Virus record (IMG/VR): IMGVR_UViG_3300025141_000196
Span: 1-44,556 of that record
Direction: 5' to 3' (one strand)
Origin: a virus
Length of the DNA: 44,556 nucleotides
Shown here: positions 1 through 20,867 of the stretch, one piece after another
How positions within the stretch are numbered: the stretch's first letter is position 1
Layout of the letters: every line of letters begins with the position of its first letter
The notes under the pieces: model-generated
Seen by the model: the letters and a program-made list of their open reading frames with translations, nothing else
Told to the model about the DNA's origin: nothing
The model's database searches: none
Translations under genes and position numbers: made by a program

Positions 1-2
1 TG

Positions 3-1432: not shown

Positions 1433-1590
1433 AAGCACCAAGAAAAAAGAAAACTGTAAAGGAATTAACTGAAGAAGTTAATGATCTCAAGCACTTGTTT
1501 AATCAACTACTTAGGTACTTTGATAGCTACATGATATGGAAAGGTGATCATACCAAGTTCACACAACATGTGGAGCATACCTATGAGTGA
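1429..1590 (+). CDS. Small basic hypothetical protein (53 aa)
   Basis: I do not recognise this protein. It starts at an ATG overlapping the Gp157-like stop by 4 bases (ATGA), behind the ribosome site GAGAGGAG. It encodes 53 residues beginning MKAPRKKKTVKELTEEV. A lysine/arginine-rich N-terminus is followed by an amphipathic helix (TVKELTEEVNDLKHLFNQLL) and an aromatic middle (YFDSYMIW). There is no signal peptide or membrane segment. It ends at TGA 1588-1590, inside the start of the next gene (ATGAGTGA), so both are probably co-translated. The coupled start and stop positions are the main reason to call it a gene. Confidence 0.55.
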   Translation: MKAPRKKKTVKELTEEVNDLKHLFNQLLRYFDSYMIWKGDHTKFTQHVEHTYE

Positions 1591-1837
1591 TAAATTCAGT
1601 GCAGCAGATTGGAAGAATTCTGTAGAGAAAGATCTCACAGAAATAAAGAAAGCTATATATGATATATATGGTTTTATAAATACACTTGAACAATGGCGTA
1701 GATTGCCATTTAATAAGGAGGCTCAAGATGCCAACCAAAACAACAACAGTACTAAAGGAAGTAAATCTAGAAAAGCCAAGAGAAAGTCAAGTAAAAAGCT
1801 TCATAGACAAGCTGGAAAACAGAATCAACGAGCTTGA
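1583..1837 (+). CDS. Small hypothetical protein with basic tail (84 aa)
   Basis: Unrecognised. The frame is open from 1544, but the ATG at 1583 (MSDKFSAADWKNSV...) is preferred because it overlaps the previous stop in ATGAGTGA and has GGAG 8-10 bases upstream. The first 45 residues look like a helical protein (NSVEKDLTEIKKAIYDIYGF). The last 35 are low-complexity and very basic (KGSKSRKAKRKSSKKLHRQ). That basic part lies over the first 110 bases of the following gene, in another frame. The tail may therefore be real nucleic-acid-binding sequence, or it may be run-on after an indel, because a +1 shift near 1720 would join the helical part to the next reading frame. Confidence 0.5.
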   Translation: MSDKFSAADWKNSVEKDLTEIKKAIYDIYGFINTLEQWRRLPFNKEAQDANQNNNSTKGSKSRKAKRKSSKKLHRQAGKQNQRA

Positions 1838-1898
1838 ACTTAGTGTTGAAGAATTAAGTACTAAATTAAAGCAAGTAGCAGGTAGATTGGGTCTGTAG
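1728..1898 (+). CDS. Small coiled-coil protein (56 aa)
   Basis: Unrecognised. The ATG at 1728 sits 7 bases after a strong ribosome site (AAGGAG, 1715-1720), so it is preferred over the upstream in-frame ATG at 1686. The product starts MPTKTTTVLKEVNLEK, and residues 20-50 form a clear short coiled coil (FIDKLENRINELELSVEELSTKL). Small coiled-coil proteins of this kind are common between replication genes of phages, usually without known function. It overlaps the tail of the upstream gene by 110 bases in another frame, and its TAG shares a base with the GTG start of the next gene (TAGTG). Confidence 0.6.
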   Translation: MPTKTTTVLKEVNLEKPRESQVKSFIDKLENRINELELSVEELSTKLKQVAGRLGL

Positions 1899-2116
1899 TG
1901 ACAGTACACCCTACTGGTAGAAAGATGCCCTATGAATGTGAAATGTGTAGTGAGCGTCAACTTAAGCCACCTGCTTACTTGTGGGTTCCTGATGGAAAAA
2001 AGATCTCAGGTTCAAAAGACCTGCGGATATGTAAAAAGTGTGCTATAAGAGAGCACGGTAGAAAAAACAAGACACCATTAACCGAAATGACAAGAATGGA
2101 GGATAAAGATGGGTAA
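1898..2116 (+). CDS. Small four-cysteine zinc-finger-like protein (72 aa)
   Basis: The start is a GTG overlapping the previous stop by one base (TAGTG); an alternative ATG at 1925 would remove nine residues. Two CxxC pairs, Cys14/Cys17 (YECEMC) and Cys45/Cys48 (RICKKC), are separated by 27 residues. This is the usual geometry of a small treble-clef or zinc-ribbon finger. The C-terminal third is basic (REHGRKNKTP), suggesting nucleic-acid binding. No family name can be given. It lies in the replication operon and overlaps the next gene by 8 bases, whose ribosome site (GGAGG) lies inside its end. Confidence 0.62.
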   Translation: MTVHPTGRKMPYECEMCSERQLKPPAYLWVPDGKKISGSKDLRICKKCAIREHGRKNKTPLTEMTRMEDKDG

Positions 2117-2270
2117 AGTAAAAGAAGCGTTAATTCAAGACATGATGCTAAATCCAGACAAGTATAATCATTATGAAGATTATGAATTTTGGATGCAATG
2201 TCGCAAGGAAGAACTCTTAGAGCGTGAAAAGGAAATCTATCACTCTAAGATAACTAAGAATGGATCCTGA
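2109..2270 (+). CDS. Small hypothetical protein (53 aa)
   Basis: Unrecognised. The ATG at 2109 follows a good GGAGG ribosome site (2099-2103) and overlaps the zinc-finger-like gene by 8 bases. The product (MGKVKEALIQDMMLNPDKYN...) is charged and predicted helical, with the aromatic stretch HYEDYEFWMQCRKEELLER and no membrane segment. It ends at TGA 2268-2270, overlapping the next start. Support is limited to the ribosome site and the tight operon packing. Confidence 0.6.
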   Translation: MGKVKEALIQDMMLNPDKYNHYEDYEFWMQCRKEELLEREKEIYHSKITKNGS

Positions 2271-2448
2271 TTATAAAGCTGCTTATAATATTCTTATGGA
2301 CTATTGGGATTGTATTCCTGAAGAAGAGAGAGGGGAAGTCAGTGAAAAACTTGATCTTGTCCTCTCTCCTCTTGGAGGTCCCAATAATGCCACAATTACT
2401 AGAGCTTTAAGGAGATTAGGTTATGAACGTAAGATCAAACAAAGCTAA
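2260..2448 (+). CDS. Small acidic hypothetical protein (62 aa)
   Basis: Unrecognised. It begins at ATG 2260, overlapping the previous gene by 11 bases, and overlaps the downstream nuclease gene by 26 bases. The first half is acidic and helical (MDPDYKAAYNILMDYWDCIPEEERGEV). The second half is neutral to basic (GGPNNATITRALRRLGYERK) and could form a small helix-turn-helix-sized helical pair. That is only a shape impression. The position directly before a PDDEXK nuclease suggests a role in DNA processing or its control. Confidence 0.55.
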   Translation: MDPDYKAAYNILMDYWDCIPEEERGEVSEKLDLVLSPLGGPNNATITRALRRLGYERKIKQS

Positions 2449-2758
2449 AGGTAGAAAGCTTCAAAATATGGTTCGCGATATTCTAAGAGATTCATTTCCA
2501 AGTCTTGAAGAAGATGATATTAAATCTCAAACTATGGGCATGACAGGGGAGGATATAGTTCTGTCCCCTGCTGCTCGTAAGTTAATACCTTATAGCTTCG
2601 AATGCAAAAATGTAGAAAGGCTACAGTTTTGGGCTGCTGTTGAGCAAGCAGAGTCTAACTCTGATGATAGAGCACCAGCTGTAGTAGTGAAAAAAAATAG
2701 ACGTGAACCTTATATTGCTATCCCTTTAGATAGCTTTATAGAATTAATTAAGGAGTGA
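2423..2758 (+). CDS. PDDEXK-family phage endonuclease / resolvase-like
   Basis: Predicted metal-dependent endonuclease of 111 aa. The N-terminus KAKGRKLQNMVRDIL is the helix that usually opens these small phage nucleases. The active-site pattern is visible as Asp44 in TGEDIVLSPAAR and Glu60-x-Lys62 in SFECKN, the E-x-K half of the PDDEXK signature, with hydrophobic strands around both. RAPAVVVKKNRREPYIAIPL follows as the last strands of the core. Phage proteins of this type resolve branched DNA or nick DNA during replication and packaging; which applies here is inference. It is the last recognisable enzyme of the plus-strand operon and overlaps the preceding small gene by 26 bases. Confidence 0.75.
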   Translation: MNVRSNKAKGRKLQNMVRDILRDSFPSLEEDDIKSQTMGMTGEDIVLSPAARKLIPYSFECKNVERLQFWAAVEQAESNSDDRAPAVVVKKNRREPYIAIPLDSFIELIKE

Positions 2759-2759
2759 A

Positions 2760-2918
2760 ATGCTAGAACAAGAAGAACTTAAAGAAATCGCAAAAAGAAT
2801 AACAGACTGGAAAGATAAGGGAGGAGACTTAGATCCCAGGCTTATCGAGTTTGTAGATGATATCTATGTGCTTGCTTCTAAAATGTATATGATAGTTCAC
2901 AAAGGTGAGAGCAACTAG
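2760..2918 (+). CDS. Small hypothetical protein (52 aa), last gene of the plus operon
   Basis: Unrecognised. The ATG at 2760 is one base after the nuclease stop, behind the ribosome site AAGGAG (2750-2755). The product starts MLEQEELKEIAKRITDWKD and is a predicted helical pair with an acidic middle and the hydrophobic end VLASKMYMIVHKG. Its TAG (2916-2918) lies within a CTAG that also supplies the stop of the converging minus-strand gene (2915-2917 read backwards), so the two operons overlap by 4 bases with no intergenic terminator. Confidence 0.6.
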   Translation: MLEQEELKEIAKRITDWKDKGGDLDPRLIEFVDDIYVLASKMYMIVHKGESN

Positions 2919-5596
2919 CTTCTCATCTTTTCAAGAGCAGACATTATAGCTCTTAGGTCGTCGGGATTCAGATTCTTGTTAGGCTTGCCTTGTAGTGCTC
3001 GCTTATATCCTTTCGCAAGTCTCTGTTTCTCACTCAGTGGCGTGAGGTAATCATCCATGAAACCTGGGGTTACCTTACGTGCATCTGAGAATAACTTATT
3101 ATGTTGTCTCTTTATATTAGATGATCCGTATAAACCAAGTTCACTACCTATAAGTGTTGTAAGCCCAGTACCATTAACCATTTTAGGAACAGTACCATAT
3201 ATAGTACGAGCAAGCTGAGTATTTAAAAGTCTTACAAATTCAAATACCTTCTCATCCTTAGTACGTTCAGCAAAGTCCTGGTATCCTGCCATATAGGACA
3301 TCCAGTCATTTTCCTTCATCTTCATAAAGTTAGTTAGCTGACCAACAGTTATAAGATCAGATACAAATGGACCACCAAATGTACCTATAGCAGGCCCCTT
3401 ACCAAAAAATACCTTCTTTCTTTCAGCTTCAGTACCAGTAAACCATGTATATAACTGATCTAATCTATCTTTAGTATCATGCTGTACTAACTTACCTATA
3501 TCTGTACTGAAAAGTGGTGATATCATACCATCAATAGCAGCATATGTAAGACCAAGTCTAGTCATACGCCATCCATTTTCACCCCATTCACCATGCATAG
3601 CACCTTCAACACCTTCAGATAGGATCTTACGGTTATATTCAAAAAAATTAATACTATAAGTACTAAACTGTCCAAGTATTGACCCAGGAGCCGTTCTAAG
3701 TGCTTTAGGTTTAGCAAAGGGAGAATACTCATAATGAAGCTCTTTAACCATATTAGCTGCGAACCTGCTGCTACGTCTTGTTATCTCTGCATTTACAGCA
3801 TCTTCTATTTTAACACCTTCTTTAAGCCTAGTTGTCTCAAGATTTTTCTGTAATATATCTTTTCTTTGGGTAAGCTCATTATACATCTTGGAAAATGCAA
3901 TCTTAAATGTAAGAGATCTATTAATATTATTCTCTACCCATTGCATAGGTTTACCAGAAAACTTTGCTACACGTTCTAAATAATGAGTGAAATTTTCAGC
4001 TGTTCCTGGAGCAACTTCAACTAACTTACCATCAACCATCTTAGTACTTGGAAGAAACTCTGCTGGCATAGCTAGCTCTTCTAGATTAGTAAAGAAGACT
4101 CCATGTCTCTTCATTTCCTGAGTCATCAAATCTTTCATTGTATCACTAGTAGCAAATCTATTATACTCTCTAATACCCTTATATCCGAAGTATATATAGT
4201 TTTGTAGTGACTGAGTAGCATTACGGGCTGCACCTCTTATATTAAATCCAAGTTTAGACATAAACTGCCATGATGTAATAGCCCTAGCTATCTTACCAAA
4301 CTTAGACTGTTTCATATCCATACCAACAGCAGATGCATGTGTATCTCTAATATAGTCAGCAAGGAATCGAATATGGTCATCCATATCCTCTCCCCTCACT
4401 TTATATCCTTGTAAATCCTGGAGTGCCTTTACTGTATCTTTAGTAACACGAGCTGTATAGTTAAATCTGGTAGCTCCTTTAGCATAAGTATCTATAATAC
4501 TAAGTACATTTTTAGATATATTAGTAGGAGCTTCATTTCCTCGTTCAAATACGTTGCCATCAAGCTTCAAATTATCAGCTATATCTTTAGTCATCTTATT
4601 GATATATTGATCCATATCTTTTACTTTATTACCATATTCACCAGACCATATACTTTCAGTAAGAGTATTGAATGTAGGTATTATATCAAGGACTTGAGTA
4701 GGAAAATAATTATCCTGTTTTGCCATCTCCCACTGACCCTTTTTATTTTTTACAAGTAAGTTCTCTTTAATATTATCAATAGTTTTTTGTTCTATACCAA
4801 GGGCTGTCTGATTACTTTCAAGTACTTTAATATAGTCATTAATGCCTGTATTTAATACTTTCCACAGCTCAGGAGCCATCTTATTATGCCATAAATCTGC
4901 AGCCTGTACAAGGTTAGTACCATATTTACTAGCATTCTCAACTCTATTACCCTTTAATATAGAATTAGGATCAATCATAAGCTTATGTAGGTTCTGCATA
5001 ACGGCAATTTCACTATCCTTGGATAGGTTTTTTATATTCTCATTATGAAATACTATAGCTGCATCTGGATCTGTTTTATTTAGTTTCTGGAACTCAGCTT
5101 CATTTTGTGCCATTTTCTTTTGAGCCTTACTTCTCGTAAGCCCAAGTCTACCCATAAGGGTATTCTCTTTAGTAGACATATTAACAAGCTCTACTATCCT
5201 ATCAAGATTAGAAGTAACTTTATGCATGTTACCCCTATAATAGTTACCAGCAACCACCACATTATCAAAATATGATTTTGTAAGTGGGTTTTTAGACATT
5301 ACATTCTCTGGAAGATAGAACCATTTAGCGAAGCTACCAGGTTTCTTACCCATCTGTCTGGAAAACTTCTTAACCTTACGTTCCAATCTCTTTAAATCTT
5401 TAAGCTTTGGCAATACTCCATAATCAAAGTCAGTCTGCATCTCACCTTCGTAAAACTTCTTCCAATATTTAGTATCCTGCCCAGTAACAGCATGTATATT
5501 ACGACCTACATCACCCTCTTTATCGAACCACATATCATGGATCTCAAGTAGTTTATCTATACGTTTCTTTTTCTCTGGACTACAGCCTGCTGCCAT
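2915..5596 (-). CDS. Large internal virion (ejection) protein, 893 aa
   Basis: Probable DNA-ejection protein and the last gene of the structural operon. It is strongly helical, with many Lys/Asn residues. Two regions look like the conserved core often seen at the end of giant phage virion proteins: SKLGFNIRGAARNATQSLQN (about 445-465) and LGQFSTYSINFFEYNRK (about 637-653). Between them lie long amphipathic helices. No catalytic motif is visible. The start at 5596 is supported by AAAGGAG six bases upstream. It directly follows the 2966-aa putative polymerase protein, apart from a 68-aa reading frame, and shares that frame's phase with a single TAA between them. By position it should be carried in the head and enter with the DNA. 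It could equally be the detached C-terminal domain of a polyprotein. Function is inferred from position and sequence style only. Confidence 0.6.
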   Translation of the reverse strand: MAAGCSPEKKKRIDKLLEIHDMWFDKEGDVGRNIHAVTGQDTKYWKKFYEGEMQTDFDYGVLPKLKDLKRLERKVKKFSRQMGKKPGSFAKWFYLPENVMSKNPLTKSYFDNVVVAGNYYRGNMHKVTSNLDRIVELVNMSTKENTLMGRLGLTRSKAQKKMAQNEAEFQKLNKTDPDAAIVFHNENIKNLSKDSEIAVMQNLHKLMIDPNSILKGNRVENASKYGTNLVQAADLWHNKMAPELWKVLNTGINDYIKVLESNQTALGIEQKTIDNIKENLLVKNKKGQWEMAKQDNYFPTQVLDIIPTFNTLTESIWSGEYGNKVKDMDQYINKMTKDIADNLKLDGNVFERGNEAPTNISKNVLSIIDTYAKGATRFNYTARVTKDTVKALQDLQGYKVRGEDMDDHIRFLADYIRDTHASAVGMDMKQSKFGKIARAITSWQFMSKLGFNIRGAARNATQSLQNYIYFGYKGIREYNRFATSDTMKDLMTQEMKRHGVFFTNLEELAMPAEFLPSTKMVDGKLVEVAPGTAENFTHYLERVAKFSGKPMQWVENNINRSLTFKIAFSKMYNELTQRKDILQKNLETTRLKEGVKIEDAVNAEITRRSSRFAANMVKELHYEYSPFAKPKALRTAPGSILGQFSTYSINFFEYNRKILSEGVEGAMHGEWGENGWRMTRLGLTYAAIDGMISPLFSTDIGKLVQHDTKDRLDQLYTWFTGTEAERKKVFFGKGPAIGTFGGPFVSDLITVGQLTNFMKMKENDWMSYMAGYQDFAERTKDEKVFEFVRLLNTQLARTIYGTVPKMVNGTGLTTLIGSELGLYGSSNIKRQHNKLFSDARKVTPGFMDDYLTPLSEKQRLAKGYKRALQGKPNKNLNPDDLRAIMSALEKMRS

Positions 5597-5803
5597 TTAA
5601 GCTCCTTTTATGTTAAAGTGGTACCTAAGGTCGGAAAAACCGAGAAACGGCCGTAAAACGCATCCTGCACCCCTTTTGCACCCCCATAGTGACCTTATAT
5701 ATGATAGCAAAGGTTTCAAAAATTGATACGCTGGGAGGGGCGACTTTCTAAAAAAAAGTTGAAAATTTTGTATATATGACATGACTTTTTCGTTATTTTT
5801 CAT
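5597..5803 (-). CDS. Possible small protein (68 aa) in a GC-richer gap
   Basis: This stretch between the two giant genes stays open for 68 codons. Its ATG overlaps the upstream TAA (TAATG) and its own TAA directly touches the next ATG, which is how true genes in this operon are packed. The product begins MKNNEKVMSYIQNFQLFF and has the cysteine/glycine/arginine patch GCKRGAGC near residues 42-49. It resembles nothing I know. Base use is richer in G and C than its neighbours. It includes the near-direct repeat GCACCCC/GCACCCC on the plus strand, an 8-base palindrome ACGGCCGT (5647-5654) and a small hairpin, TCGG-AAAAA-CCGA (5631-5643). It may be a gene, a structured RNA or regulatory segment, or both. 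Confidence 0.4.
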   Translation of the reverse strand: MKNNEKVMSYIQNFQLFFRKSPLPAYQFLKPLLSYIRSLWGCKRGAGCVLRPFLGFSDLRYHFNIKGA

Positions 5804-8800
5804 TATAAACAATTCTCATCAAATTCTCTGTTCTTTATAGTTTCTCTTAGTTCTTTCGGTGTCTGCACACCAGTACCCATAGCATCATCAAAATTAGCTC
5901 TAACTCTAGGGTTATGCTTAACATATAATATGTCTTTGCCAAGTGCATCTCCAAAGAATACTTTTGCTTCTCTATATCTAGCATCATTAAAAGAATCCCA
6001 TCCATTTATAGCAGGAAACTTACCACCAGTAAAGTCATGTGGTATGTATCCTGATGGTGAATAGCCATAAGCCTGTGCTTCTTTAGCATACTTGACCCAC
6101 TCAGGGCCAACCAGCCTTGAACTTAAAAGATATCCTGTAGTAAATGATTGATTGTATCCAAATGTAGCTGCTACATCAGGGTTAATCTCACCGAGTATAT
6201 CATTATACTCTTTTGTATCCTTCCACTTCATCTTTAAATTAGAATCAAGTAGTGGTGCAGGTGATTCATACATAGTTTCTCTGTTATATTTGACACTCTC
6301 TTCATATAATAGGTGTCCAAAGTCATTAGCAGGAGCTTGTTGTCCTCTAAATGTCTTGTACAATGTGTTGTAAGAGTCTGCAAATACTTTAAACATAGAA
6401 TCTTTCTGCAACTCTCCCTTCTTATCTGTATTAGCCAGCCATCTAAGACCAAACTTAATATATGTAGGACTATCAGACTGAAAACTCTCAACAAACTTAC
6501 CATTAAAGTATGTCATAGAACCTATATCTTTAGTAGGACTCATGATTTTAATAAGAGCTAGGTTACCAAGCCCTTCCTTATGACCTTCCCATTTATTATA
6601 TAGCTCATCAAACATACCTTTGGCCTGTTCCATAATCATACTCTCACCAAGCCATGGCTCTCTCTTGTTAGCCTTACGCTTCTTGTCATCAAAAAGCTGC
6701 TTCCACATCTTAGAGTAAGCTTTCTTAAAATTATAGATATCATTTTCAAAATCATAAGATGCCTGTCCTTGTAGCTTATCAAAGTCTGGCATAATGTATA
6801 TGTCTTTCCACTTATGGAGCATCTCATTCCATATAATCATATCCATTTGCTCTGAAGTACTGATACCTTTGATCTTTAAAGGCTCTGCCCTAGCCCACTT
6901 TGTTATAGTAGATGTATTTTCTCCCACCCATTTCATAGCTTCACCATAAGTTTGGAAGTTCTTATCTCTAGTCCACTTATTAGTTTTAAAATTACTAGTT
7001 ATCTCATAAGCAATCCTTCTCTGTGCCTGACTAAGAACCATCTTAAGCACCTCTGTATCAGTCATGATAGCTTCTTGTACCTTGTTTCTCTTATCAGTAA
7101 GTCTTGCTACATCATGCTCTACAGCTTCAGCAAGAGAAGTATTATTCTGACGCTTTTGTTCCCACATAATACGACTCTGCTTTTTAATACGCCAGTCTAA
7201 ATAATTAAGGTATCCAAAGTTCTTTGAATCAGATCTTATCTGTTTTATGATTTGTGAGATAGCTTCTGTTGAACCCTCATCACCACTAGCAATCCATTCA
7301 TTACTCCATCTCTCAAAGTTACCAAGCTTCTCACCAAACATCTTGACAGGAGCGGACACTTTCATACCATCATTTCTACCTATCTCCCTGATAGTTCTTT
7401 CAAATGGGAGTAGATTATCACCAGTAATGTTGGCTACAACAGCCCCGAATGGATTGTGCCACTCTTTATTCTTCTTGAATATATTATTAAGAAATGTTGG
7501 ATCTATACCCTGTTTTATTAGTTTATTATAAGCATTCTTACTTGCAAACCTCATTCTGGTTTCAAATCTACTACTAGCATCTATAAGATCTTCATACCTT
7601 GTGCTTCTCCTCTTGCCATCCTCAAACATACCTGTACCTACCTGAAGGAGTCCTCTATATGGAGCTATGAGTTCATTAATAGCAGTCTTTGCCACCTCTC
7701 CATAACTGTGTCCATCCAGCGTACCAGGAGCATCCTCAAATACCTTTTCCTTTCCATTATATTCTTGCCATGTAAAGATACCTTCATACCTTTCACCACC
7801 CTTTTCTCCGTAAAGAAATTTGTTAGACCATACATTATCTTTAAATAGATCTGTATCATAACCTGTCTTAGAGTCAACTATAGTTTGGATATCTTCTGCA
7901 AGAACTTTCTTAGCTCTTCTAAGTTTGTCAGCATCAAGTATTAAACGACCTTTAATCCCACCAGCATCCATGATTACTTTTCTTTCACCAAACTTTCCCT
8001 TCTTCCCATCATATCCTACTATCTCTTGTATAGTCTGGCTATAATTATCAAAGAATTGTAGCATCCTACTCATCTTAACTATCCGACCACGCATGAAAGA
8101 TGCATTAGCTTGGTCTTTATTAAACTTCTCTATCATACCAGGCTTTAAAAAGTCAAGACCTTCCCATGACTTAGGATTTTTAGGAGGATTAACAGCTCCC
8201 ACCTCACCAGACAGAGCATCCCATTTATTAAATAAATCTTCAGGAGTATCCCACCAATAGTTAACCTTATCTACATCAAAGTCACCTTCCATACGCATCT
8301 TAAGATCATGTGCATTAATACGAGCTTGGTTTCCCACCTCTCCATCTAGAAAGCCTCTAAGTCCAGAGATAATAATATCTCCTGGTCTAGTTCTTGGATT
8401 TCTATAAGAGGTAATAGCAATCTCATATCCAGTATCTTTGATAGCATCAAATGCCTGTCCAAGATTCATACTCTTTTTAATAAGACCAGCTTGATCACCT
8501 TTATTAAATTCTTTAAAAGATAATGTGTTATCCTTACCAGTATCATTATGTTTTATAAACCGTAGCTTGTCAAGAATAATAGCTTTATTCCTATTATGAT
8601 TACTAATCTCTATCTGTCCATAGGTATATATTTGACGCTCACCATCTTTAGGTGTGAAGAATGTAGTGTTTCTAAGACTCTTATCTATAAGTGGTAAGTT
8701 AGGAACAAGCACAGACTGAGAGCCATGAGGTGTTGTCATTGTAAGGAGACCACCATTATCTATCATAACTTTCTTTACATTATTCTTCATAGTCTGTATG

Positions 8801-11800
8801 AATGGACTGGTAAATGGAATACCATTATGTTTTAACCATCTAGTATAAGCACCCATACCATCATATGTCTCAGGAATACTGTTGTGATGCTTTGCAAACG
8901 CTATAGCCTCTGTTGGATCGTGCTCATTAAAAGCCTTGCCAACTGTAGCTATATATTTCTTTAATCTATCTGAGATATAACTACTATATAAACTCTGTCC
9001 TTCAATAGCAGTAAGCTCATTAGCTATCTGTTGTGATATTGTAGCATCATGATCAGGCTTAACAACTGCACCAAGCTCTATGTCTTTAAAATCTAACTTA
9101 TGTACAAACTCTCCACCAATAATCTTTGTATCAAGAGAGCCAAGTGTCTCACCTTCTTTAAAATCAAATCTACTTACAGTAGGATCCTTCATCTTCTCTG
9201 CACTATCAAACATAATAGCATGTATATTCTTATTATTACTAAAGAAACTATCAAACTCCTTACTATATACAAACACAGTCTTACCAAGTATAACACCCCT
9301 GCCATTAGCACCAGCATACTTATGAACGATAGGTTTAATACCTCCTATACCAGAAGTATTACCTGCAGCTCCAAGAGCCTCTAAGGCACGCATAACTTGT
9401 TTATTAACAGGCATATAAGAGTCAACCATACTAGCGTCATCAGCACTATCCCAATTTTTATCTTTAAGATCCTGTAGACCACTAAGTTCTGTATTAGCAT
9501 CTAACTCAGCTTGCATTTGTCTTCTTATGTTTTCATAGGCAGAAAACTCTTTCTTGCCAAGACCAGATTCATCAGCAGCAATCATTATATTCATACCATC
9601 ATTCTTAGAAAGTATCTTTAATCCTTTTACCTGATCTGTATCTCCATCTATATCTTTAAAATGCTTTAGAGCCATATCTGTAAGCTTCTTATCCATACCA
9701 TACATACTTACATTAGACATGAGTTTAAACCTGGTAGCTAGCTTAGTGAATGCTTTAGGATCACTACCATCTATGCCCTTATTAATAACATCCCACCAGT
9801 TTTTACCAATAGCTTTGTCCATCCATATGTGAGTGAGCATAGCAGTAGCATAGTGACCATCCTGTTCTGCAGTACTATTCTTAAACTTATAAGTAGTATC
9901 ATCAACGGTAGTGGATTTAGTATAGTCAGTCCCAGACTCTCTACCTTTTGAATCTGGCTTTAATCCATCTGGAATATTAGGATCTCCCTCTACATAAATA
10001 TGTTTATGATCCCCTCTTTCTGTGCCATCTTTTAAAATCTTTTTATCTCTAAGTATATGGTGACCTTCATGTGCATCTATAGTATCTGCAAAATTCTTAG
10101 CACCTCCAAGACCATCCTTCATATTCATTAGCTGTCGTTGTGCTGCTTCAAGATTTTTAACAATCCATACATCTCTAGCAGCTCCATCACCCTCAATAAT
10201 GCGAGGATCCTCTAACATACGTACATCAGGATCTACATGGTATATAAATACATCCTCTTTAAAGCCAGCCTTCTTATCAACCTTAACCTTCGTGCCAGTA
10301 AGAGCTTCTAATACTTTATAAGCTTGACCATAAGTATCTTTACCATACTTCTTCTTAGCTGCAGCAGTAACATCAATAAACTTCTTTGAAATCTCTGATA
10401 GGTTCTCTTTAGGTATAGCTATTGCCCATGATCCTTCGGGAAGAGTAACCAGAACAGACTCTTGAGTGAATGAGAAACGTGCTCCCATAATCTCATTACT
10501 TTGTTTGAAATCTTTATTAACCCCCATACTTGTATCATATAGGACACCTCTTAAGAAGTTCTCTGCATTAATATCCCTACGAGAATCAATAACACCAGCT
10601 GAAGTCATAGTATTGTAATCAACTATAGAAAAGTTACCTTCCCCTACTATATCTGTTATAGATTTAAATAGAGAGTTGTTAGTCATAGTATTATCATTGT
10701 CTACTATAGCCCCCACTCCTTCACCAGCCATAATCCTAGATATATTTACAGTATTGATATGATTTCTATACAGTCCTATAGTATCAGAAATAACCTGTCT
10801 CTTCTGATCGGCAGATAGTTTATTATATTCAGCTCCCTCAAACTTAACCTCTTTAAATACAGTCTCAAAGGGATCAAGATCCTTATCATTATCAAAAATC
10901 TCTCTTACCTTATCATACTCTACACCATATTTATCTCTAAAATCATTAGGAGTGATGATCTTAAAGTCATCAGTATGGTCATACTTCATGTCATGATTGT
11001 CCATATGCTCATTGATTCTCTGCTCAACCCTGGATGCAGTATCACTGAAAGGTATAATCCTATTAATCTTACTCATAGCTGTCTTTATAGAACTAATAGG
11101 ATCTGTAGGAGCATCAAGCTCAAGCTCTTGTCTATTCCTATTCCATAAACCAGACTCAGATAGAATATTAAGCAGCTGTCTAGTATCTCTTTGACGATTC
11201 CAGAACCTATGATATATAGCTGTTATAAATTTCTGATCAGCACTTTCTGGAGAACCTTCAGTTCTAATCCTTTCAATAGATTCCATTAACTTGGTATGGC
11301 TCTGTCCTTCAGCCTTCATATCTATCATGTCCATACGATGAACCATCTCACTTAAGTATGGAGCATCAACCTGTGCTTCAAGATTGCTGGGAGTTAAGAG
11401 GCCTTTACCCTCTTCAGTTTTCATTAAGGGTTCTACATGTCTCTCATAGTTATCTATTATCTTCCTAGCATAGTCTAAAGGCTCCATATCGTTGATCCTA
11501 GCCGCGTTTGATAGAACCTGGTACAATCCCTCATTACCAAGATAAAGTCCCTCTATGGGCATATCTTCACCCCCAAGAGCCTTTTCTAATCTAAACTTAG
11601 AAGATGTAATAGCAGGTATAGCAGACTTTAAGGCACCAACTACTCCCTTGATATTAACTATATTAAATTGTGGATCTACTATACCACTCTCCATCATGTA
11701 TTTAATTTTAGATCTCTGACCATCATTTAAAAGCTTACCTTTAGAATCTCTGGCTCTGGATAACTGTTTGTCCATAGTATATCTATTCATATCATGAACA

Positions 11801-14703
11801 AATCTTTCAAGGTGTCCCTGGTTTTCAACACCAAATCCACCCATACCATTCTTACTTAATAGATCACGTAGTTTCTTAACATCATTATAGGAAGCCTTTT
11901 GACTGGTTGTTTCTGTTGTCAATCCAAATGGAGCTTTGTAGTTAGGATGTGTTGCCAGTACCTGTTTCAAAGCATCTGCAAATAATTGCATTTTCTCAGG
12001 CCCCTGTTTACCACCACTAACATCAATACTATTTGCTAGCAATCCAACACCTCGTCCTTTCCCTTTAACAAAGATAGTATTTATAAGCCTATTTATCTCC
12101 TTTGCATCATCAGCATTCTTGCCCCATACTCCAGAAGTATTATCTAAATCACTGATCTTATCATAGATATCACGAACACCTTTATAGTAGCTTTGCGATT
12201 CCATCCAAGTACCAAGAAGTTCCTCTCCAAGTTTAACTCCACCTTCTATTGGTGGACCTTCTTTATAAATAAGCTTATTAGCCTGATCCTCTAATCTTTT
12301 AGCAATCTCAGAAAGTCCTTTAAAACTTTCAGTAGTAGCTTCAAGATAATTTTTTTCACTAGGATTAATTTTTACTTTCTGACTACCACCAGCCCTTCCA
12401 AGTACATTTAATACTCTAAGATAACTATCAAAAGCTCTTTGATCTGCATCTGATATTTTATGACCAGCTGCTGGTTTTATCATTCTAATCTCTACAGTGC
12501 CATCACTAGCAACATCCCATACTCCACCCATCTTTTCAAAACCCTGTTTAGCATAGTCATAGTATATCTGATACATCTCTTTGAGCTTTGGTTCAGCAGC
12601 ACTATACATTATTTTATCAACATCTGCTTTACTTTCTATAACACCAGACTCACTATTAGAAAACTCTGTATCCTGCAATAAGCGTTCTAACTTAACTATC
12701 TTCTTCTTGGAAAGCTCATCAACTCTGAGCATTCTTTGATGACTACCTGTAAGAGGGCCATCTGCAAGCATCATTATATGCTCATACAATGAGTGATATC
12801 CTGCTGTACCTTGTCTTTTTCTCTTTACTTTAGTTGTTCTCTCATAGTCTTGATCTACTATAAGCCCCTCATCATTAAGTATCTTAACAAGTTTCTTTAC
12901 ATCATCATTAGTTTCATCTATTGCAAAGTATTCTTCTCTAAGTTTATAATCATTTACAAGCTGTTGGAATCTAAGAGCCTTATGATCCATGCCCATCTTG
13001 TCAAGATACATAGCTGCATCTTTAATCCTATCACCATATGTAAAGGGTCTCTCGGTAAACTTAATAGATTTCATACTACCATCACTACCAGTATACTCAA
13101 TAGTCCTACCTTGTTTGGTCATATATGCACCAACAAGTACATTAAATATCTTATCTTCCAGGGGAACATAGTCATCAAATATTATATCATGGTTAAAAGC
13201 CATAGCACCTGCAATCATACGACCACTAGATTCAGCTAAGTCTTTACCTGATTCCTTGAGCCATTCCTTAGCCCAGATCTTACCCCAATCATTCTCAACA
13301 CTCATCATTACCTGCTTTAGTTTAGCAGCTCCTTCAGCAGTCTCACCAAGTTTAGCAATATCATCCATTGAACCAGTAAACATTCCAATATTCTTTTCAT
13401 CTATCTTAGTTAAACCCTTGTCTGAAAATATCTTACCAGCATTGCCTGTCTTCCATAGACTCTGAGAGTATCTTGTTAAAGCTTTCCTATCAGCAGCACT
13501 CTTAACATCATACTGAGAGAATGGTCTCTTGTTACTTAAGATACCTTTATGAGCATAACCAAATTCATCTGTATAACCGAAGGCTCTTCTCCATCCCTCT
13601 CTCATTATACCCTGTCCCTTACCACCAGGTATCATTCTAATAAGACCAAGAGCACTACCAAGAGTAAAGGCATGGCCGAGTGTACCTGTATAATTAGCAG
13701 GTCTATCTTCTTCTAAACTATTAAAGAGTTCCATTGGAGTCTCTACTGCTCCGAATATAAGTGCTTCCTCAAGAGCGTGAGAGGCTATATTAGCCACTTT
13801 TCCTGCTCCAGCACTCCTACCTAAGGCTATAGCTATTCGTTGCTGCAATGTGGTGATAGGAAGACTACTTCCCTTAAATCCACCAACGTTACGCATAACT
13901 ATCTCTTCAATAGCCTTTAGTTTTTCTTTACTACGAACATTAATACCAGCATTCTTTAGCTGATCTCTAAGAACATTTGGAAAGGTTTCATTAACTATTT
14001 TAGTATAGGCTTCCCTACCTTTAGCACTATGTAAAGCTCCAGACTTTGCATGATGTTCTAAGGTTTCTACAAATGGTTTAAATACATTATCTTTCTGGGT
14101 TTGGGTAAGCTTGTTAAAAGTCTTCATCTTCCCAAGAAGCTCACCAGCACCAGCTTCTTTAAGCATTGCCCGTCCTGCTGCCGCTGTGCCATGAGAACTT
14201 AAGCCTTTAACAGCCATACCAGCACCCTTCTTAGCAATACCCATTGGAGTCATAAATCCAATAAGACCACCAATACCTGCACCAGCTCTACCAGCAAATC
14301 CAGATGGTCCTTCCTCCCCAGTCATAAACTCTTCACCCTGTCCTTCCATTAGCTTCTCATCAGCCAATCCTAATAAACCAAAGCTAGTGACATCAGCAGC
14401 TTCCCATAGCATGTTGCCTACAAAATCTAACGCAGCATTTCTAGGTTCTATGGTTGGACCAGGTTGTATTAAAGGTCTACCCCATCTACGACCAGCATCA
14501 AGGTCAGGGATATCTTCTGGCTCTGTAGATCGACCTACTATTCTAGATGAAGGTAGCTGTTGATAGCCAGATAAAGACTTATCTACTGCCTTATTTGTTG
14601 CTTGTTGAGAATCAATAAAGGAATTGATCTGATCATCATCCCACTCTACACCTTTAGCTAAGAGTCTAGCTCTTAATCTTTCTCTATCAAAAGAACTTGC
14701 CAT
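5803..14703 (-). CDS. Giant virion protein with putative two-barrel RNA polymerase and zincin-like motif (2966 aa)
   Basis: This single gene takes a fifth of the window. The N-terminus has a glycine-rich hydrophobic stretch (about 138-168) that could insert in a membrane. HEGHH at 1545-1549 is an HExxH zincin-like motif, with a possible glutamate ligand downstream in the segment STAEQDGHYATAM. FDSAEK (1832-1837) and, about 300 residues later, YRNPRTRPGD (from 2100) leading to GDFDVDKVNYWW (2140-2151) match the order of signature segments in double-psi-barrel RNA polymerases. These are the lysine-bearing SAxK loop of the first barrel and the DxDxD magnesium-binding loop of the second, as in crAss-like phage virion polymerases. 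Its length and position among ejection genes fit a polymerase packaged in the head and injected to transcribe early genes. The start has AAGGAA five bases upstream. The polymerase call rests on motifs, not an alignment. No T7/N4-type polymerase motifs were noticed. Confidence 0.68.
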   Translation of the reverse strand: MASSFDRERLRARLLAKGVEWDDDQINSFIDSQQATNKAVDKSLSGYQQLPSSRIVGRSTEPEDIPDLDAGRRWGRPLIQPGPTIEPRNAALDFVGNMLWEAADVTSFGLLGLADEKLMEGQGEEFMTGEEGPSGFAGRAGAGIGGLIGFMTPMGIAKKGAGMAVKGLSSHGTAAAGRAMLKEAGAGELLGKMKTFNKLTQTQKDNVFKPFVETLEHHAKSGALHSAKGREAYTKIVNETFPNVLRDQLKNAGINVRSKEKLKAIEEIVMRNVGGFKGSSLPITTLQQRIAIALGRSAGAGKVANIASHALEEALIFGAVETPMELFNSLEEDRPANYTGTLGHAFTLGSALGLIRMIPGGKGQGIMREGWRRAFGYTDEFGYAHKGILSNKRPFSQYDVKSAADRKALTRYSQSLWKTGNAGKIFSDKGLTKIDEKNIGMFTGSMDDIAKLGETAEGAAKLKQVMMSVENDWGKIWAKEWLKESGKDLAESSGRMIAGAMAFNHDIIFDDYVPLEDKIFNVLVGAYMTKQGRTIEYTGSDGSMKSIKFTERPFTYGDRIKDAAMYLDKMGMDHKALRFQQLVNDYKLREEYFAIDETNDDVKKLVKILNDEGLIVDQDYERTTKVKRKRQGTAGYHSLYEHIMMLADGPLTGSHQRMLRVDELSKKKIVKLERLLQDTEFSNSESGVIESKADVDKIMYSAAEPKLKEMYQIYYDYAKQGFEKMGGVWDVASDGTVEIRMIKPAAGHKISDADQRAFDSYLRVLNVLGRAGGSQKVKINPSEKNYLEATTESFKGLSEIAKRLEDQANKLIYKEGPPIEGGVKLGEELLGTWMESQSYYKGVRDIYDKISDLDNTSGVWGKNADDAKEINRLINTIFVKGKGRGVGLLANSIDVSGGKQGPEKMQLFADALKQVLATHPNYKAPFGLTTETTSQKASYNDVKKLRDLLSKNGMGGFGVENQGHLERFVHDMNRYTMDKQLSRARDSKGKLLNDGQRSKIKYMMESGIVDPQFNIVNIKGVVGALKSAIPAITSSKFRLEKALGGEDMPIEGLYLGNEGLYQVLSNAARINDMEPLDYARKIIDNYERHVEPLMKTEEGKGLLTPSNLEAQVDAPYLSEMVHRMDMIDMKAEGQSHTKLMESIERIRTEGSPESADQKFITAIYHRFWNRQRDTRQLLNILSESGLWNRNRQELELDAPTDPISSIKTAMSKINRIIPFSDTASRVEQRINEHMDNHDMKYDHTDDFKIITPNDFRDKYGVEYDKVREIFDNDKDLDPFETVFKEVKFEGAEYNKLSADQKRQVISDTIGLYRNHINTVNISRIMAGEGVGAIVDNDNTMTNNSLFKSITDIVGEGNFSIVDYNTMTSAGVIDSRRDINAENFLRGVLYDTSMGVNKDFKQSNEIMGARFSFTQESVLVTLPEGSWAIAIPKENLSEISKKFIDVTAAAKKKYGKDTYGQAYKVLEALTGTKVKVDKKAGFKEDVFIYHVDPDVRMLEDPRIIEGDGAARDVWIVKNLEAAQRQLMNMKDGLGGAKNFADTIDAHEGHHILRDKKILKDGTERGDHKHIYVEGDPNIPDGLKPDSKGRESGTDYTKSTTVDDTTYKFKNSTAEQDGHYATAMLTHIWMDKAIGKNWWDVINKGIDGSDPKAFTKLATRFKLMSNVSMYGMDKKLTDMALKHFKDIDGDTDQVKGLKILSKNDGMNIMIAADESGLGKKEFSAYENIRRQMQAELDANTELSGLQDLKDKNWDSADDASMVDSYMPVNKQVMRALEALGAAGNTSGIGGIKPIVHKYAGANGRGVILGKTVFVYSKEFDSFFSNNKNIHAIMFDSAEKMKDPTVSRFDFKEGETLGSLDTKIIGGEFVHKLDFKDIELGAVVKPDHDATISQQIANELTAIEGQSLYSSYISDRLKKYIATVGKAFNEHDPTEAIAFAKHHNSIPETYDGMGAYTRWLKHNGIPFTSPFIQTMKNNVKKVMIDNGGLLTMTTPHGSQSVLVPNLPLIDKSLRNTTFFTPKDGERQIYTYGQIEISNHNRNKAIILDKLRFIKHNDTGKDNTLSFKEFNKGDQAGLIKKSMNLGQAFDAIKDTGYEIAITSYRNPRTRPGDIIISGLRGFLDGEVGNQARINAHDLKMRMEGDFDVDKVNYWWDTPEDLFNKWDALSGEVGAVNPPKNPKSWEGLDFLKPGMIEKFNKDQANASFMRGRIVKMSRMLQFFDNYSQTIQEIVGYDGKKGKFGERKVIMDAGGIKGRLILDADKLRRAKKVLAEDIQTIVDSKTGYDTDLFKDNVWSNKFLYGEKGGERYEGIFTWQEYNGKEKVFEDAPGTLDGHSYGEVAKTAINELIAPYRGLLQVGTGMFEDGKRRSTRYEDLIDASSRFETRMRFASKNAYNKLIKQGIDPTFLNNIFKKNKEWHNPFGAVVANITGDNLLPFERTIREIGRNDGMKVSAPVKMFGEKLGNFERWSNEWIASGDEGSTEAISQIIKQIRSDSKNFGYLNYLDWRIKKQSRIMWEQKRQNNTSLAEAVEHDVARLTDKRNKVQEAIMTDTEVLKMVLSQAQRRIAYEITSNFKTNKWTRDKNFQTYGEAMKWVGENTSTITKWARAEPLKIKGISTSEQMDMIIWNEMLHKWKDIYIMPDFDKLQGQASYDFENDIYNFKKAYSKMWKQLFDDKKRKANKREPWLGESMIMEQAKGMFDELYNKWEGHKEGLGNLALIKIMSPTKDIGSMTYFNGKFVESFQSDSPTYIKFGLRWLANTDKKGELQKDSMFKVFADSYNTLYKTFRGQQAPANDFGHLLYEESVKYNRETMYESPAPLLDSNLKMKWKDTKEYNDILGEINPDVAATFGYNQSFTTGYLLSSRLVGPEWVKYAKEAQAYGYSPSGYIPHDFTGGKFPAINGWDSFNDARYREAKVFFGDALGKDILYVKHNPRVRANFDDAMGTGVQTPKELRETIKNREFDENCL

Positions 14704-14711
14704 TTAATTCC

Positions 14712-16745
14712 TTATGGTTGTTGTAAGCTTCTTTGAAGTTCGTCCCATTCTTCTGGAGTTAGTGCTCCACGTGCTCCCGTACCCCTTGTTTGCTTAGGAA
14801 CAGAAGAAGGATCTAGATATCGTAAAACATCTTCAGAAATATCTGCTCGTCTCTCACCCCTAGTAGAGTATCTTTCAAAGTTACTCAATAAAGCTTCCTT
14901 ATATTCATCCCAAGCTTGAAGAAGTTTAACAGCAGTTTCTTGATTACCACCACTACCAGTTAAACCCAAGAAACCATACCCTGATTTTGAAACATATCGT
15001 GATGCTTGACGTTTAACCTCTGCTTCCATGGTAGCTATATCTTCAAGTAATAATTTCTCATCCTTTGCAAAATAGGCAACGTCTCCACCAGGATGACCTC
15101 TATGTGCCTGACCAGACGCTATAACTGATGGAAGATCTTTCCATTTATTTGAATAGAAACCCTGATAATAACGTGAAAGGTTCTGCTGAGCAGTTACTAA
15201 GTTTCTATTAGATAATTTATCAGCATCCTTGTCTGCATAGATTGCATTTTGAGATTCTATTAGATCATTCAATTCCACTGTACCTAAATTGTCGTCACCT
15301 CCAGCTCCTTGAAGATCAATCCATTCACTATGGGCTAACATAATCTCATCTATTGTACTCTCTTCATAGCCTGGTTCATACTTACCTTCAAGCATTAATG
15401 CCAGATCCTCTTCATCAATAGGAAGACCTTCACGATAGTATGTATCAATGTTCTTGCCACTTGCATTGCTTAAGAAGTTTAGCTCTGTAGTAGTTAAAAA
15501 TTCAGCTGTATTATTTAAAGTTAAAGCATGTTTTAAATCATCTTCATTAGGCATTAGACCAGATCCAATAAACTGCTCATATCTCTTGTACAATCTATAA
15601 TACTCTCTAGCATCTTTTTCAATAGCAGGATCCATACCTCTAAATCTACCTTTCTTGGCATTCCTTATAAGATCTATACCAGGGCCTACTGGAGTTACTC
15701 CATCAGCTCCCATTGTGGGAGGCATATCAGCAAGCCATCTATCTTCCATAGCCAGTCTATTTTCAAACTCTTCATATATATTACCAAGAGTATTTATAAC
15801 AGGATATGGATTATCTGCATTATATGCTTGTAGCATTGTACCTATCTCATCATGTATTAAACTATAATTTTGATTAGTATTAATCTGATCCATATATTTA
15901 TTAAAGCTCTCTGTATCACCAGCTGTAAGAGCAAGATTAATCATTTGGGGAGCCATTCCACCTATCTTTATTTGAGATTTTAAATCAGAGGTAAGTTTAA
16001 TGCCTCTTTCCTTAAGAATATCTTGGTACTTATCAATATTGCTAAAAACCTGTTCTTTCTTCTGATTTAGTATTTCATTAGACAACTGCTCTGTCTGAAG
16101 GTATTCTATATTCTTTTGAACTGCTATATCTCTAGTATTACCAGCTTGAAATCCTTCTCTAAATTGTGTACTGGTTTCATATAAAGTTTTCTGTTCTGGT
16201 GTAAGCTGTGCAAAAAGCTGTGCCATCTCACTACCAGGTTGATCTTCATATAAAATCTCATTATAAGGAGTTCCACCTTTTATACCGCTATAAACACTTT
16301 CACCAACATCATCTATATCACCTTCAACCATATAGTTTCTATAAGCATCTGGTCCATATTGATCTACAGCATCAAGACCAGCATAAGTGTCACTAAGTTC
16401 TCCCATTAAAGCCTGACCTTGGTTGAACTCATTTAAAGCTGTTTCCAAACTATCTACTTGCCCTTGTGAATACTTCACCATACCTTCCATGTTACGAAGA
16501 TTGTCTCCAACAAAAGCTATTGGTATATTCTTAGCCTTTTCAAAATCACTAGAACTAGATGTCTCTGGAACTGTAGCACCAACATTAAGTAGTCTATCCT
16601 TCAAACTCCTAGCTTCTTCATAGAGATTCTGTTGTTGATTAGAAAGTATTTTTAACTGTTGATTTTTCTGCTCAATCATCGCATCCCATATGCCACCCAT
16701 ATTCTGATCAACTATAGCCGAAATTATTCTATTACTTATTGCCAT
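14712..16745 (-). CDS. Internal virion / ejection protein (677 aa)
   Basis: A mostly helical, acidic, glutamine-rich protein with no recognised enzyme motif. The N-terminal 60 residues form an amphipathic, coiled-coil-like segment (WDAMIEQKNQQLKILSNQQQ). Long helices continue through the middle. The C-terminus is polar with Arg/Gly and Pro/Glu stretches (TRGTGARGALTPEEWDEL). It has no signal peptide and no clear membrane helix. It lies between the 1169-aa membrane-anchored protein and the 2966-aa giant, with a TAATG overlap upstream and 8 bases to the next gene. That position matches the ejection proteins of short-tailed phages, which leave the head before or with the DNA. GGGAG upstream of the ATG supports the start. 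The role is inferred from context. Confidence 0.55.
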   Translation of the reverse strand: MAISNRIISAIVDQNMGGIWDAMIEQKNQQLKILSNQQQNLYEEARSLKDRLLNVGATVPETSSSSDFEKAKNIPIAFVGDNLRNMEGMVKYSQGQVDSLETALNEFNQGQALMGELSDTYAGLDAVDQYGPDAYRNYMVEGDIDDVGESVYSGIKGGTPYNEILYEDQPGSEMAQLFAQLTPEQKTLYETSTQFREGFQAGNTRDIAVQKNIEYLQTEQLSNEILNQKKEQVFSNIDKYQDILKERGIKLTSDLKSQIKIGGMAPQMINLALTAGDTESFNKYMDQINTNQNYSLIHDEIGTMLQAYNADNPYPVINTLGNIYEEFENRLAMEDRWLADMPPTMGADGVTPVGPGIDLIRNAKKGRFRGMDPAIEKDAREYYRLYKRYEQFIGSGLMPNEDDLKHALTLNNTAEFLTTTELNFLSNASGKNIDTYYREGLPIDEEDLALMLEGKYEPGYEESTIDEIMLAHSEWIDLQGAGGDDNLGTVELNDLIESQNAIYADKDADKLSNRNLVTAQQNLSRYYQGFYSNKWKDLPSVIASGQAHRGHPGGDVAYFAKDEKLLLEDIATMEAEVKRQASRYVSKSGYGFLGLTGSGGNQETAVKLLQAWDEYKEALLSNFERYSTRGERRADISEDVLRYLDPSSVPKQTRGTGARGALTPEEWDELQRSLQQP

Positions 16746-19700
16746 TATAAACTCCCTAATACTTTAAAATAGTTTACCATCTTATAATTACCATTCTTAA
16801 TAACTGCCTCTGGAACAACCTTCTCAACTTCATCAGCCATGAATCCAGTATGTTTTTTATCATCCCATAAGTAGCTGAATGTGTAGACATTAAGACCTTT
16901 ATAGGTACCAGTCTTTTTAATATTCTTTTTAAGCTTTCTATCACTACCAGAAGCTAGAGCACAAATCCAAGGTTGAGCAGTACAAACAATAGCTACAGCA
17001 ACAGCAGTAAGGATTATTGTTCCTATAGGAGGTATAGGAGTTCCTTCGTTATTATTATCATTAGGATCATTAACAACCCTTGCAACCCCTGCTTCATCAT
17101 ACAAAGACCAATCTTTTGCAAATAATTTTGTAAATACATTAGTAGGAGAAGGATCATTTAGTTCCTCTTGAATAAAGTTTACATAATTATGAGCCGCACC
17201 ACCTACAGAACCTCTTAATAATTCTAGTTGTGCAGGTATACTTTGAGCTCCAGCAGTCTTCCACATCTTTGCCCATTCAGCCATAGTTGCATTCTCTGCA
17301 TCAGTATTGTCAGCTTGAAAGGCTGCTATCTTTGCTTTCTCTCCTTCAGAACCTGGGCCAAAAGTTTTTTGTATATTAGTTGCACCTGTAAAAAACTTAT
17401 TATAGACTGATTCACCAGGCTCATCTTCTATACCAGTAAGCTCACTTTGCATTATACCTTCTTGACCTATGGCAGTCTCTAAATCTGTAAAAGCTCCTGC
17501 TGCCCCTGATTCTAGATCAGCTTTACCAAGGTTATAAAGTCTAAGTTCCTCTGCCTTATCAGTTGAGACATCTCCAAATGCACCTTCAGTAACTCCTGCA
17601 TATTTTACAGCCTCAGTTGCTGAACCTGGAGATGCTGTTTCCAAGGCAGTTATCTCATCCTCCGTTAATAAACCTGCTTCAGTAGTAGTAGCAGCCCCTA
17701 GATCTCCTGTAAAAGTACCAACCCAATCTCTAAGTCCTGTACCAAATATACCACCAGTTGGATAAGCTTCCATATCTGAAGTAACAGCAGTTGGAAGATC
17801 TACACCAGCATAAAGCTCTTTTGATATTGCACCTGTCTCCCATCCTGTATCTACACTAGTATATGAAGGCAACTTACCTGCTGCAACATTCCCAGCACCA
17901 ACAAATGTTTCATCATCAGCTGTACCAAATTTCTTATCTGGTCCTGGAGAATATCCTGATAAAAGAGCTGGATCTGTCTTACCAAAGAGTCCTAACTTAG
18001 TTGTTTTATGAGTGTCAAATGCATCTCCATAATCACCTTTAGTATTTGTAATAATATTAGTAGACACCCCATCTATCATCATAGTTTGAGTTCCTCCAGC
18101 AACAAAACCATTCTGCATAACTTCAAGTATTGATTCTGCTGTATGTGGTTCTGTTACTTGGGTAGTAACACCATCTACATCTGTAACAGTGTAAGTATAA
18201 GTACCAAATATATTACCAAGAGAAGTATCCATTATAACCTCTTGTTGATCTAGAGTTCCTGCATCACCAAACCCAAGCTCCCATGCAGCAACAAGATTGT
18301 TGGAAATAAGCTCTACATTATTATCAAAATTTATCTTTTCCTGTTCATTGAATTCTTCCCATGTTAATTTATCCTCACCATAAGCCTCTGCTATACCTTG
18401 TTCTAACTTTTCCTTAACACGAGCTGTAGAGCCTGATCTAAGTCCTTTTTGTTTAGCAACCTTATCCTTTAATCCTACTTGACCTTGTGCAAATTCACTA
18501 GCAGTAGATTCAAAGTCAGTTTGAAAATCTTCATGAGCCTGTTCTAAATTATCTATTTTATCCTCTGTATACTTATCATAAGTATTTTGATATGTACCAA
18601 TAGCACCTTCTTCATTTTCTCCACCAAGCATCTTCCTTAGTTCATAAGCTAGTTCTGATTCATTTTCTAAAGCATTATTCTCAGTCGCACTACCAGCTGT
18701 AGCATCAAATAGAAGATTATAATCATCATCCATAAACCCTGCACTAATTAAGTCAGACTTATTATAGTCACCTACTCCAAAAAAGCTCTTAGAAGCACCC
18801 TCCATGGCTGTATTCCAAGCTACTGCAGCTGCATTGTCATCATCTGAAGTTTTTGCTATTGCAGTAGATAAAGCATTCTCTCCAAAATTAGGATTTACAT
18901 AGAAATTCTCAGCTACTGTACTTATATTCTCACGAGCTGTAGCAAGTGGGCTACCAAGATCTGGAGTAACATAATCACCTTCTCCAAACAATCCTTTAAG
19001 AATAGTTTCCTGCCCCTCATATAGTCCAGCATACTTACCCGACTCAATGGGTGCAAATTCTTTCTGCCCTCCATAAAATGCCTCCCACTGTTCACCTTCC
19101 CTAGCCGATCCTGTTACAATATTTCCAGCTTCATCAACAAATTCACCATATGTAGCACTTTCAGGATCAGAGTCTATACCCCATTGACCAAGTCCTGCTC
19201 GCTGATCTAAAATATCTTGTTGTTTTATACCTATAGCTATATTCTTAGCATCTCTCCTTGATTTAGTTCCCTCCATAGATTCTATATGAGCAGCCATTGC
19301 AGATCCTGGACTATACTTTTGTTTAGCCGCTGCAAAAGCAGCCTCATCAGAATCAATAGTTAACTCTACCTGCGTACCACCAACATCTATCATTGGAGCT
19401 ATATTATAAGGATCTGCAGGATCCCAACCTGCTAAGGCACCAGTTTCTGATCCAAAGAATGGTGTTACTGCTGCTTGTCTGTTTTCGAAATAAGCCTTAA
19501 CTTTATCACCTGGTGAGGCAGGAGCTGAAAGAGTACCAGCTTGTAATTGATGATAAACAGATGGAGTCTCATCACCTGTTCCTCCAGTTTGATCATATGC
19601 TGCTGCAGTTATGTCACCATATTTAGCCCACTGCTGATAATGTTTTCCAAGTTCTCCCTGTCCTCTAATAGGAGTATTGTAACCTTCCCAATCATAAGTT

Positions 19701-20814: not shown

Positions 20815-20867
20815 AACAATACCTCTTATCTAAAATTAATTGGTATAAACCATTATAATATAATACA

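Follow-up and report, generated by a model that had tools for sequence, protein, structure and literature searches.

In two-barrel RNA polymerases, an RxP motif together with DxDxD is the signature of the β′-type barrel, and paired lysines are the signature of the β-type barrel. In crAss-like phages, a polymerase homologous to the one described below is present in virions (PMC10172136), and in phi14:2 this enzyme is responsible for early-gene transcription (PMC7886860). Virion two-barrel polymerases have also been described outside the crAss-like and N4-like phages, in jumbo phages (PMC7598289) and in the Thermus phage P23-45, whose virion polymerase, gp96, is fused to the tail tape measure, and which encodes a non-virion enzyme, gp64, in addition (PMC10770324). 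Coupling of transcription to DNA entry was proposed for P23-45, and large-protein fusions in crAss-like and N4-related phages may do likewise (PMC10770324). Because these P23-45 and jumbo-phage enzymes are published, the kind of enzyme considered here was already known, and the view taken in an initial sequence-only reading of our locus, that it would extend virion polymerases beyond the known crAss-like and N4-like phages, is outdated in that wording.

The DNA analysed (hereafter, the window) is a 44,556-nucleotide stretch, IMG/VR virus record IMGVR_UViG_3300025141_000196, which is presumably of marine origin, judging by IMG metagenome numbers. Its minus strand contains an uninterrupted ORF of 2966 codons (14703 to 5803) that starts with ATG and is preceded, at a distance of a few bases, by AAGGA. 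The gene and its parts are as follows:

5803–14703, minus strand: giant polymerase gene, 2966 aa (ORF, family alignment, fold)
7024–9783, minus strand: modelled polymerase core, residues 1641–2560 (AlphaFold2 and Foldseek)
9049–9348, minus strand: first barrel region, DPBB-A, residues ~1786–1885, boundaries approximate (invariant K1790, K1808, and K1837; model strands; alignment with crAss DPBB-A)
9193–9210, minus strand: FDSAEK, residues 1832–1837, with K1837 last (counterpart of crAss FDSAVK and phi14:2 LDGVK)
8254–8427, minus strand: second barrel segment, DPBB-B, residues 2093–2150, with RxP, GN, and DxDxD (model strands; protein-wide conservation maximum)
8377–8403, minus strand: RNPRTRPGD, residues 2101–2109 (invariant R2101 and P2103; counterpart of crAss YRIP and cellular β′ RxP)
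8269–8283, minus strand: DFDVD, residues 2141–2145, predicted Asp triad for metal binding (conserved without exception, 32 of 32 relatives)
8041–8136, minus strand: long helix after DPBB-B, residues 2190–2221 (model; invariant G2206, near-invariant K2210)

Both barrels are located within one ORF, unlike those of the multisubunit virion polymerase of jumbo phages, which are encoded by separate genes. In the model, the helix at residues 2190–2221 is a candidate bridge helix. Outside the core, the N-terminal ~1,640 and the C-terminal ~400 amino acids, or ~2,000 residues, are without an assigned function.

The sequence-only reading had placed DFDVD at residue 2141 (DNA 8269–8283), RNPRTRPGD at 2101, and FDSAEK at 1832–1837, and all of these positions were found to be correct. 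Within a single sequence such a motif pair is weak evidence, because shuffling the giant protein 2000 times produced an RxP followed 25–60 residues later by DxDxD in 115 cases (~6%). No match to the giant protein or to three of its divergent relatives was found by sequence in Pfam, PHROGs, or PDB. Both the shuffling result and the lack of database matches would be compatible with chance occurrence of the motifs in an unrelated giant virion protein. A motif scan of the polymerase-bearing contigs revealed no further two-barrel polymerase.

Relatives were gathered from IMG/VR in successive scans, the alignment being enlarged from step to step. There is one close relative (69% identity), followed by contigs at 37% and ~30%, and then by some twenty lineages at ~20–30% identity. 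Where complete, the corresponding ORFs are ~2700–3050 amino acids long, with one of 3759 amino acids. The latter belongs to the most divergent relative (L099, contig 3300037041_000905), in which the second-barrel motifs read RSP...DYDYD; no other contig of the set matches the P22 portal and the SU10 capsid as strongly. No family members were detected among phage records by tblastn, and no relatives were found in bacterial or archaeal genomes; because of their absence from bacterial genomes, no link to a host could be made.

Conservation was evaluated in an alignment of 32 members (19–68% identity in the core), with invariance judged over the members covering each column. Invariant positions include K1790, K1808, T1809, K1837, R2101, P2103, G2124, N2125, D2133, E2139, D2141, D2143, and D2145, as well as G2206, G2233, Q2273, D2277, and L2297. 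Among thirteen full-length proteins, the conservation maximum falls at residues 2101–2200. As judged from the aligned sequences, conservation of the motifs across relatives down to ~19% identity is far beyond chance. The same data bear on the possibility that the protein descends from a polymerase whose active site has died, leaving it with a role only in ejection or as an internal virion protein, as its ejection-protein position and the ~2,000 residues outside the core might suggest. A dead enzyme would lose its invariant catalytic residues, whereas here the expected ones are all invariant over very large divergence, with the remaining protein being variable; we consider this possibility very unlikely. 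In an active polymerase, the Asp triad 2141/2143/2145 would hold the catalytic Mg ion, while K1808 and K1837 of the first barrel and R2101 of the second would contact the nucleotide and nucleic acid.

An AlphaFold2 model of residues 1641–2560 built with 32 sequences had a pLDDT of 80.1 and a pTM of 0.78; a first model, based on only 14 relatives, had a pLDDT of 51.6 and gave meaningless fold matches, and was discarded. In the DPBB-A region, strands are formed by residues 1789–1797, 1803–1808, 1811–1813, and 1829–1832, and K1790 and K1808 are within strands. In DPBB-B, strands are formed by residues 2093–2100, 2111–2118, 2126–2129, and 2146–2150; R2101 directly follows the first of these, and DFDVD is in a loop ahead of the last. 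The modelled placement of K1790, K1808, R2101, and DFDVD is as expected for two barrels.

A Foldseek search with the model against 350,542 PDB chains returned the phi14:2 virion polymerase (6vr4_A) as the best match (E 2.2e-9), followed by QDE-1 (1.0e-6 and 1.8e-6), maize RDR2 (9.4e-6), and then the large subunits of RNA polymerases II, III, and I. The remainder of the first fifty matches were likewise polymerase subunits. Because the global TM-scores against experimental polymerase structures are low (0.27, with an rmsd of >20 Å along the whole alignment), the match concerns the local fold and order of elements and does not extend to the overall arrangement. In a viral library, the best matches were unnamed UniProt viral proteins (E 1e-60 and weaker), and crAss polymerases and phi14:2 gp66 came next. 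The core has thus passed the structure-prediction check proposed at the outset, with the phi14:2 virion polymerase as its best PDB match at the level of local fold and order only.

Homology to crAss-like enzymes was established by profile–profile comparison with a set of twelve crAss-like and related polymerases, including phi14:2 gp66 (annotated as gp077 in KC821624). The 32-member profile matched this set in hhalign with a probability of 95.2%, a P value of 2.6e-8, and a score of 82.3; 100 column shuffles scored at most 27.8, and the reversed profile 17.6. Shuffles that included gappy columns had given a few absurd scores above 130, and the control was redone on match columns only (<28). An earlier 12-member profile scored 64.6, versus 24.7 for shuffles, and with 9 close relatives the match was weak (P 0.005), becoming strong only after more diverse relatives were added. 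The alignment, at ~12% identity, covers both barrels in order: FDSAEK and K1837 fall on the crAss Lys motif, YRIP is the counterpart of RNP, and DFDID that of DFDVD. HMMER comparison of the family profile with single crAss proteins again picked out both blocks, in unchanged order, with an E value of 7.4e-6 for L018 (whole-sequence, small set); one example is the NQIDVVQFDSAVKVG region of L018. In whole crAss genomes the family profile remained below significance, and the single sequences of YonO, P23-45 gp64, and P23-45 gp96 did not match it; because of these results, kinship to known polymerases must be remote. In an unrooted tree, the family and the crAss group (Crassvirales and Fipvunavirus enzymes) form two separate clades with 100/100 support, i.e., the family is homologous to the crAss group over both barrels and is placed outside its clade.

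The invariance in 32 relatives, the profile–profile match, and a confident model with only two-barrel RNA polymerases as significant PDB matches leave a negligibly small probability that the motifs arose by chance in an unrelated giant virion protein. The original suggestion of a two-barrel RNA polymerase whose catalytic halves contain K1837 and DFDVD is now backed by conservation, profile–profile comparison, and structure prediction with fold search, and sequence and model together strongly support the assignment of the core as a single-chain two-barrel RNA polymerase. Catalytic activity, with DNA as the template, is a probable property of this core.

The surroundings of the polymerase gene define the phage lineage. 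The relevant genes of the window are as follows:

39306–41618, minus strand: portal, P22-type (PF16510, E 5.2e-54; phrog_156)
36727–38340, minus strand: major capsid protein, SU10-type (PF17236, SU10_MCP, E 9.8e-19)
41984–43540, minus strand: terminase large subunit (phrog_38, E 6.8e-72)
14712–16745, minus strand: 677-aa protein of the late block, immediately upstream of the polymerase gene (position)
2915–5596, minus strand: 893-aa protein, encoded next after the polymerase (12 of 13 contigs tested have a homologue)

The terminase is ~25% identical to those of marine and enteric podoviruses. Among 33 polymerase-bearing contigs, a P22-type portal was found in 16 and an SU10-type capsid in 16, the remainder being mostly short. 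The crassvirus capsid (PF23898) was found in none of the 33, while the control phages phi14:2 and crAss001 matched it at 664 and 757 bits; the portal and terminase of phi14:2 belong to other families (phrog_6547 and phrog_6681, respectively), and its capsid is Crass_capsid. By the protein families they carry (a P22-type portal, an SU10-type capsid, another terminase family, and no crAss capsid), the polymerase-bearing phages are not Crassvirales. The P22-like portal noticed in the sequence-only reading is confirmed by the PF16510 match (E 5e-54), and the claim that this is a P22-portal lineage and not a crAss-like one agrees with the portal, capsid, and terminase families and with the absent crassvirus capsid.

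Roseobacter phage CRP-810 and a Desulfofustis phage, which have similar capsid proteins, were considered as carriers of a polymerase in the corresponding location and rejected: they encode large proteins, but these contain no DxDxD and have no profile match. In CRP-810 (L100), the giant late protein at the comparable position (16362–22412; 2016 aa) has no DxDxD, and this phage may be an example of such a phage devoid of the polymerase. The contigs of two relatives, L049 (G013, 111 kb) and L071 (G032, 104 kb), each have two P22-type portals that differ from one another and a pair of SU10-type capsid genes, ~57–60 kb apart, but only one polymerase match; either two related phage genomes were joined by assembly, or the contig is a concatemer whose second unit lacks the polymerase gene.

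The recurrent gene order in contigs of 54–57 kb is terminase, portal, capsid, tail, proteins of ~300–600 amino acids, polymerase, and a protein of ~550–940 amino acids, and this late block adjoins early genes of the opposite strand. In all 16 informative contigs (the window and 15 others), the polymerase gene is on the same strand as the portal or capsid gene. The polymerase gene is in the ejection-protein position of the late block. By its position, the 677-aa protein is a candidate internal virion protein. The only contig of 13 that lacks a homologue of the 893-aa protein ends inside the polymerase gene; a search for known homologues of this protein revealed none, and it is a candidate second ejection protein or polymerase-associated protein. 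Long stretches of it, e.g., SKLGLNLRGAARNATQSLQNY, are conserved among relatives. Elsewhere in the window, two tail-fibre genes (28653–33780, minus strand; 697 and 1013 aa) match the same fibre families, and a 1169-aa protein (16745–20254, minus strand) ends in an endosialidase-type chaperone domain. The early region (1–2758, plus strand), which is cut by the contig end, contains genes for a DnaB-like helicase and a Gp157/Mu Gam-like protein, and small ORFs. A search for repeated early promoter elements in the early regions (the contig is linear and incomplete) returned nothing convincing, mostly repeats resembling ribosome-binding sites.

The late-block position also bears on the possibility that the polymerase is made in the cell for the transcription of middle or late genes and is no component of the virion, as in the case of P23-45 gp64 and SPβ YonO. 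Activity and packaging are separate questions, and P23-45 has polymerases of both kinds (PMC10770324). A non-virion role is, however, difficult to reconcile with ~2,000 residues beyond the core, with a gene located in the late structural block, right behind those for tail and internal proteins, and running in the direction of the portal or capsid gene in 16 of 16 contigs, and with the fact that crAss polymerases, the nearest relatives of known biology, are virion proteins. We consider it improbable.

Our preferred reading, in which we have considerable confidence, is that the giant protein combines a long N-terminal extension with a DNA-dependent RNA polymerase of the phi14:2 gp66 (crAss-like) type, that it is the product of a late gene of a podovirus-like phage outside the crassviruses, and that it is most likely packaged, ejected, and engaged in transcription of the first phage genes. 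Packaging, ejection, and the early-gene role are suggested by analogy, from homology and gene position; the host-independent early transcription proposed in the sequence-only reading is, like packaging, plausible. According to this reading, the polymerase would be packed in the capsid alongside other internal proteins, would cross the portal and tail partly unfolded, ahead of or with the DNA, and would refold inside the cell and then transcribe the first phage genes. A further-reaching scenario, possible though rather doubtful, is that the giant protein is a DNA-entry channel and a polymerase at once: the conserved N-terminal 1,640 residues would be located in the envelope while the core transcribes the entering genome, this podovirus-type lineage would begin infection without recourse to host RNA polymerase, and the enzyme would have been exchanged with Crassvirales or inherited from before the split.

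The family and the phage lineage appear to be undescribed: no description was found in the open-licence literature, a scope outside which the supplementary survey of viral two-barrel polymerases in PMC10770324 falls. The novelty lies in the radiation of a crAss-type enzyme, as a deeply separate family, within a phage lineage distinct from the crAss-like one. Since some twenty lineages with a different capsid and portal carry a relative, the start of infection by a phage's own polymerase is probably more widespread than described. If the enzymes are active, early transcription by an imported phage enzyme would be a common strategy and no speciality of crAss-like phages. About thirty divergent sequences are now available for locating the minimal active core, and the family is a test case for the movement of such enzymes between unrelated phage lineages.

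Among known systems, YonO of SPβ (PMC5467207) is likewise a single-chain two-barrel polymerase in a phage, but it is not giant (839 aa), has DNDGD, and shows no detectable profile match to the family. QDE-1 and RDR2, the second to fourth best PDB matches, share the single-chain two-barrel fold; unlike the window protein, they are eukaryotic, cellular RNA-dependent enzymes that function in RNA interference on RNA templates. In its way of working, the window protein, for which packaging is presumed, resembles the N4 virion RNA polymerase (Schitoviridae), a giant virion-packaged enzyme of early transcription. The N4 enzyme is of a different, T7-like class; the T7-like RNA polymerase domain PF00940 had no match in the window and 15 relatives in a search whose positive control was also silent. 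P23-45 gp96 is similar in being a two-barrel polymerase within a giant protein outside the crAss-like and N4-like phages. In gp96, it is the N-terminus of a siphovirus tape measure that carries the polymerase, with DFDGD, whereas in the window it occupies residues ~1650–2600 of a podovirus-type late protein and has DFDVD.

Compared with phi14:2 and the crAss-like phages, the window polymerase is only ~12% identical, belongs to a separate clade, and is encoded with a P22-type portal, an SU10-type capsid, and another terminase family; the genome of the window phage is probably near 55 kb, as opposed to ~100 kb for crAss, and an 893-aa partner is encoded after the window polymerase. Yet it is the phi14:2/crAss polymerase that comes closest to the window enzyme: both are single chains in which a Lys barrel precedes a DxDxD barrel of the DFD[VI]D type, with the RxP ~40 residues and the FDSAxK/LDGVK lysine ~300 residues before DxDxD, and both are giant proteins that close the late gene block, the phi14:2 enzyme being the best structural match.
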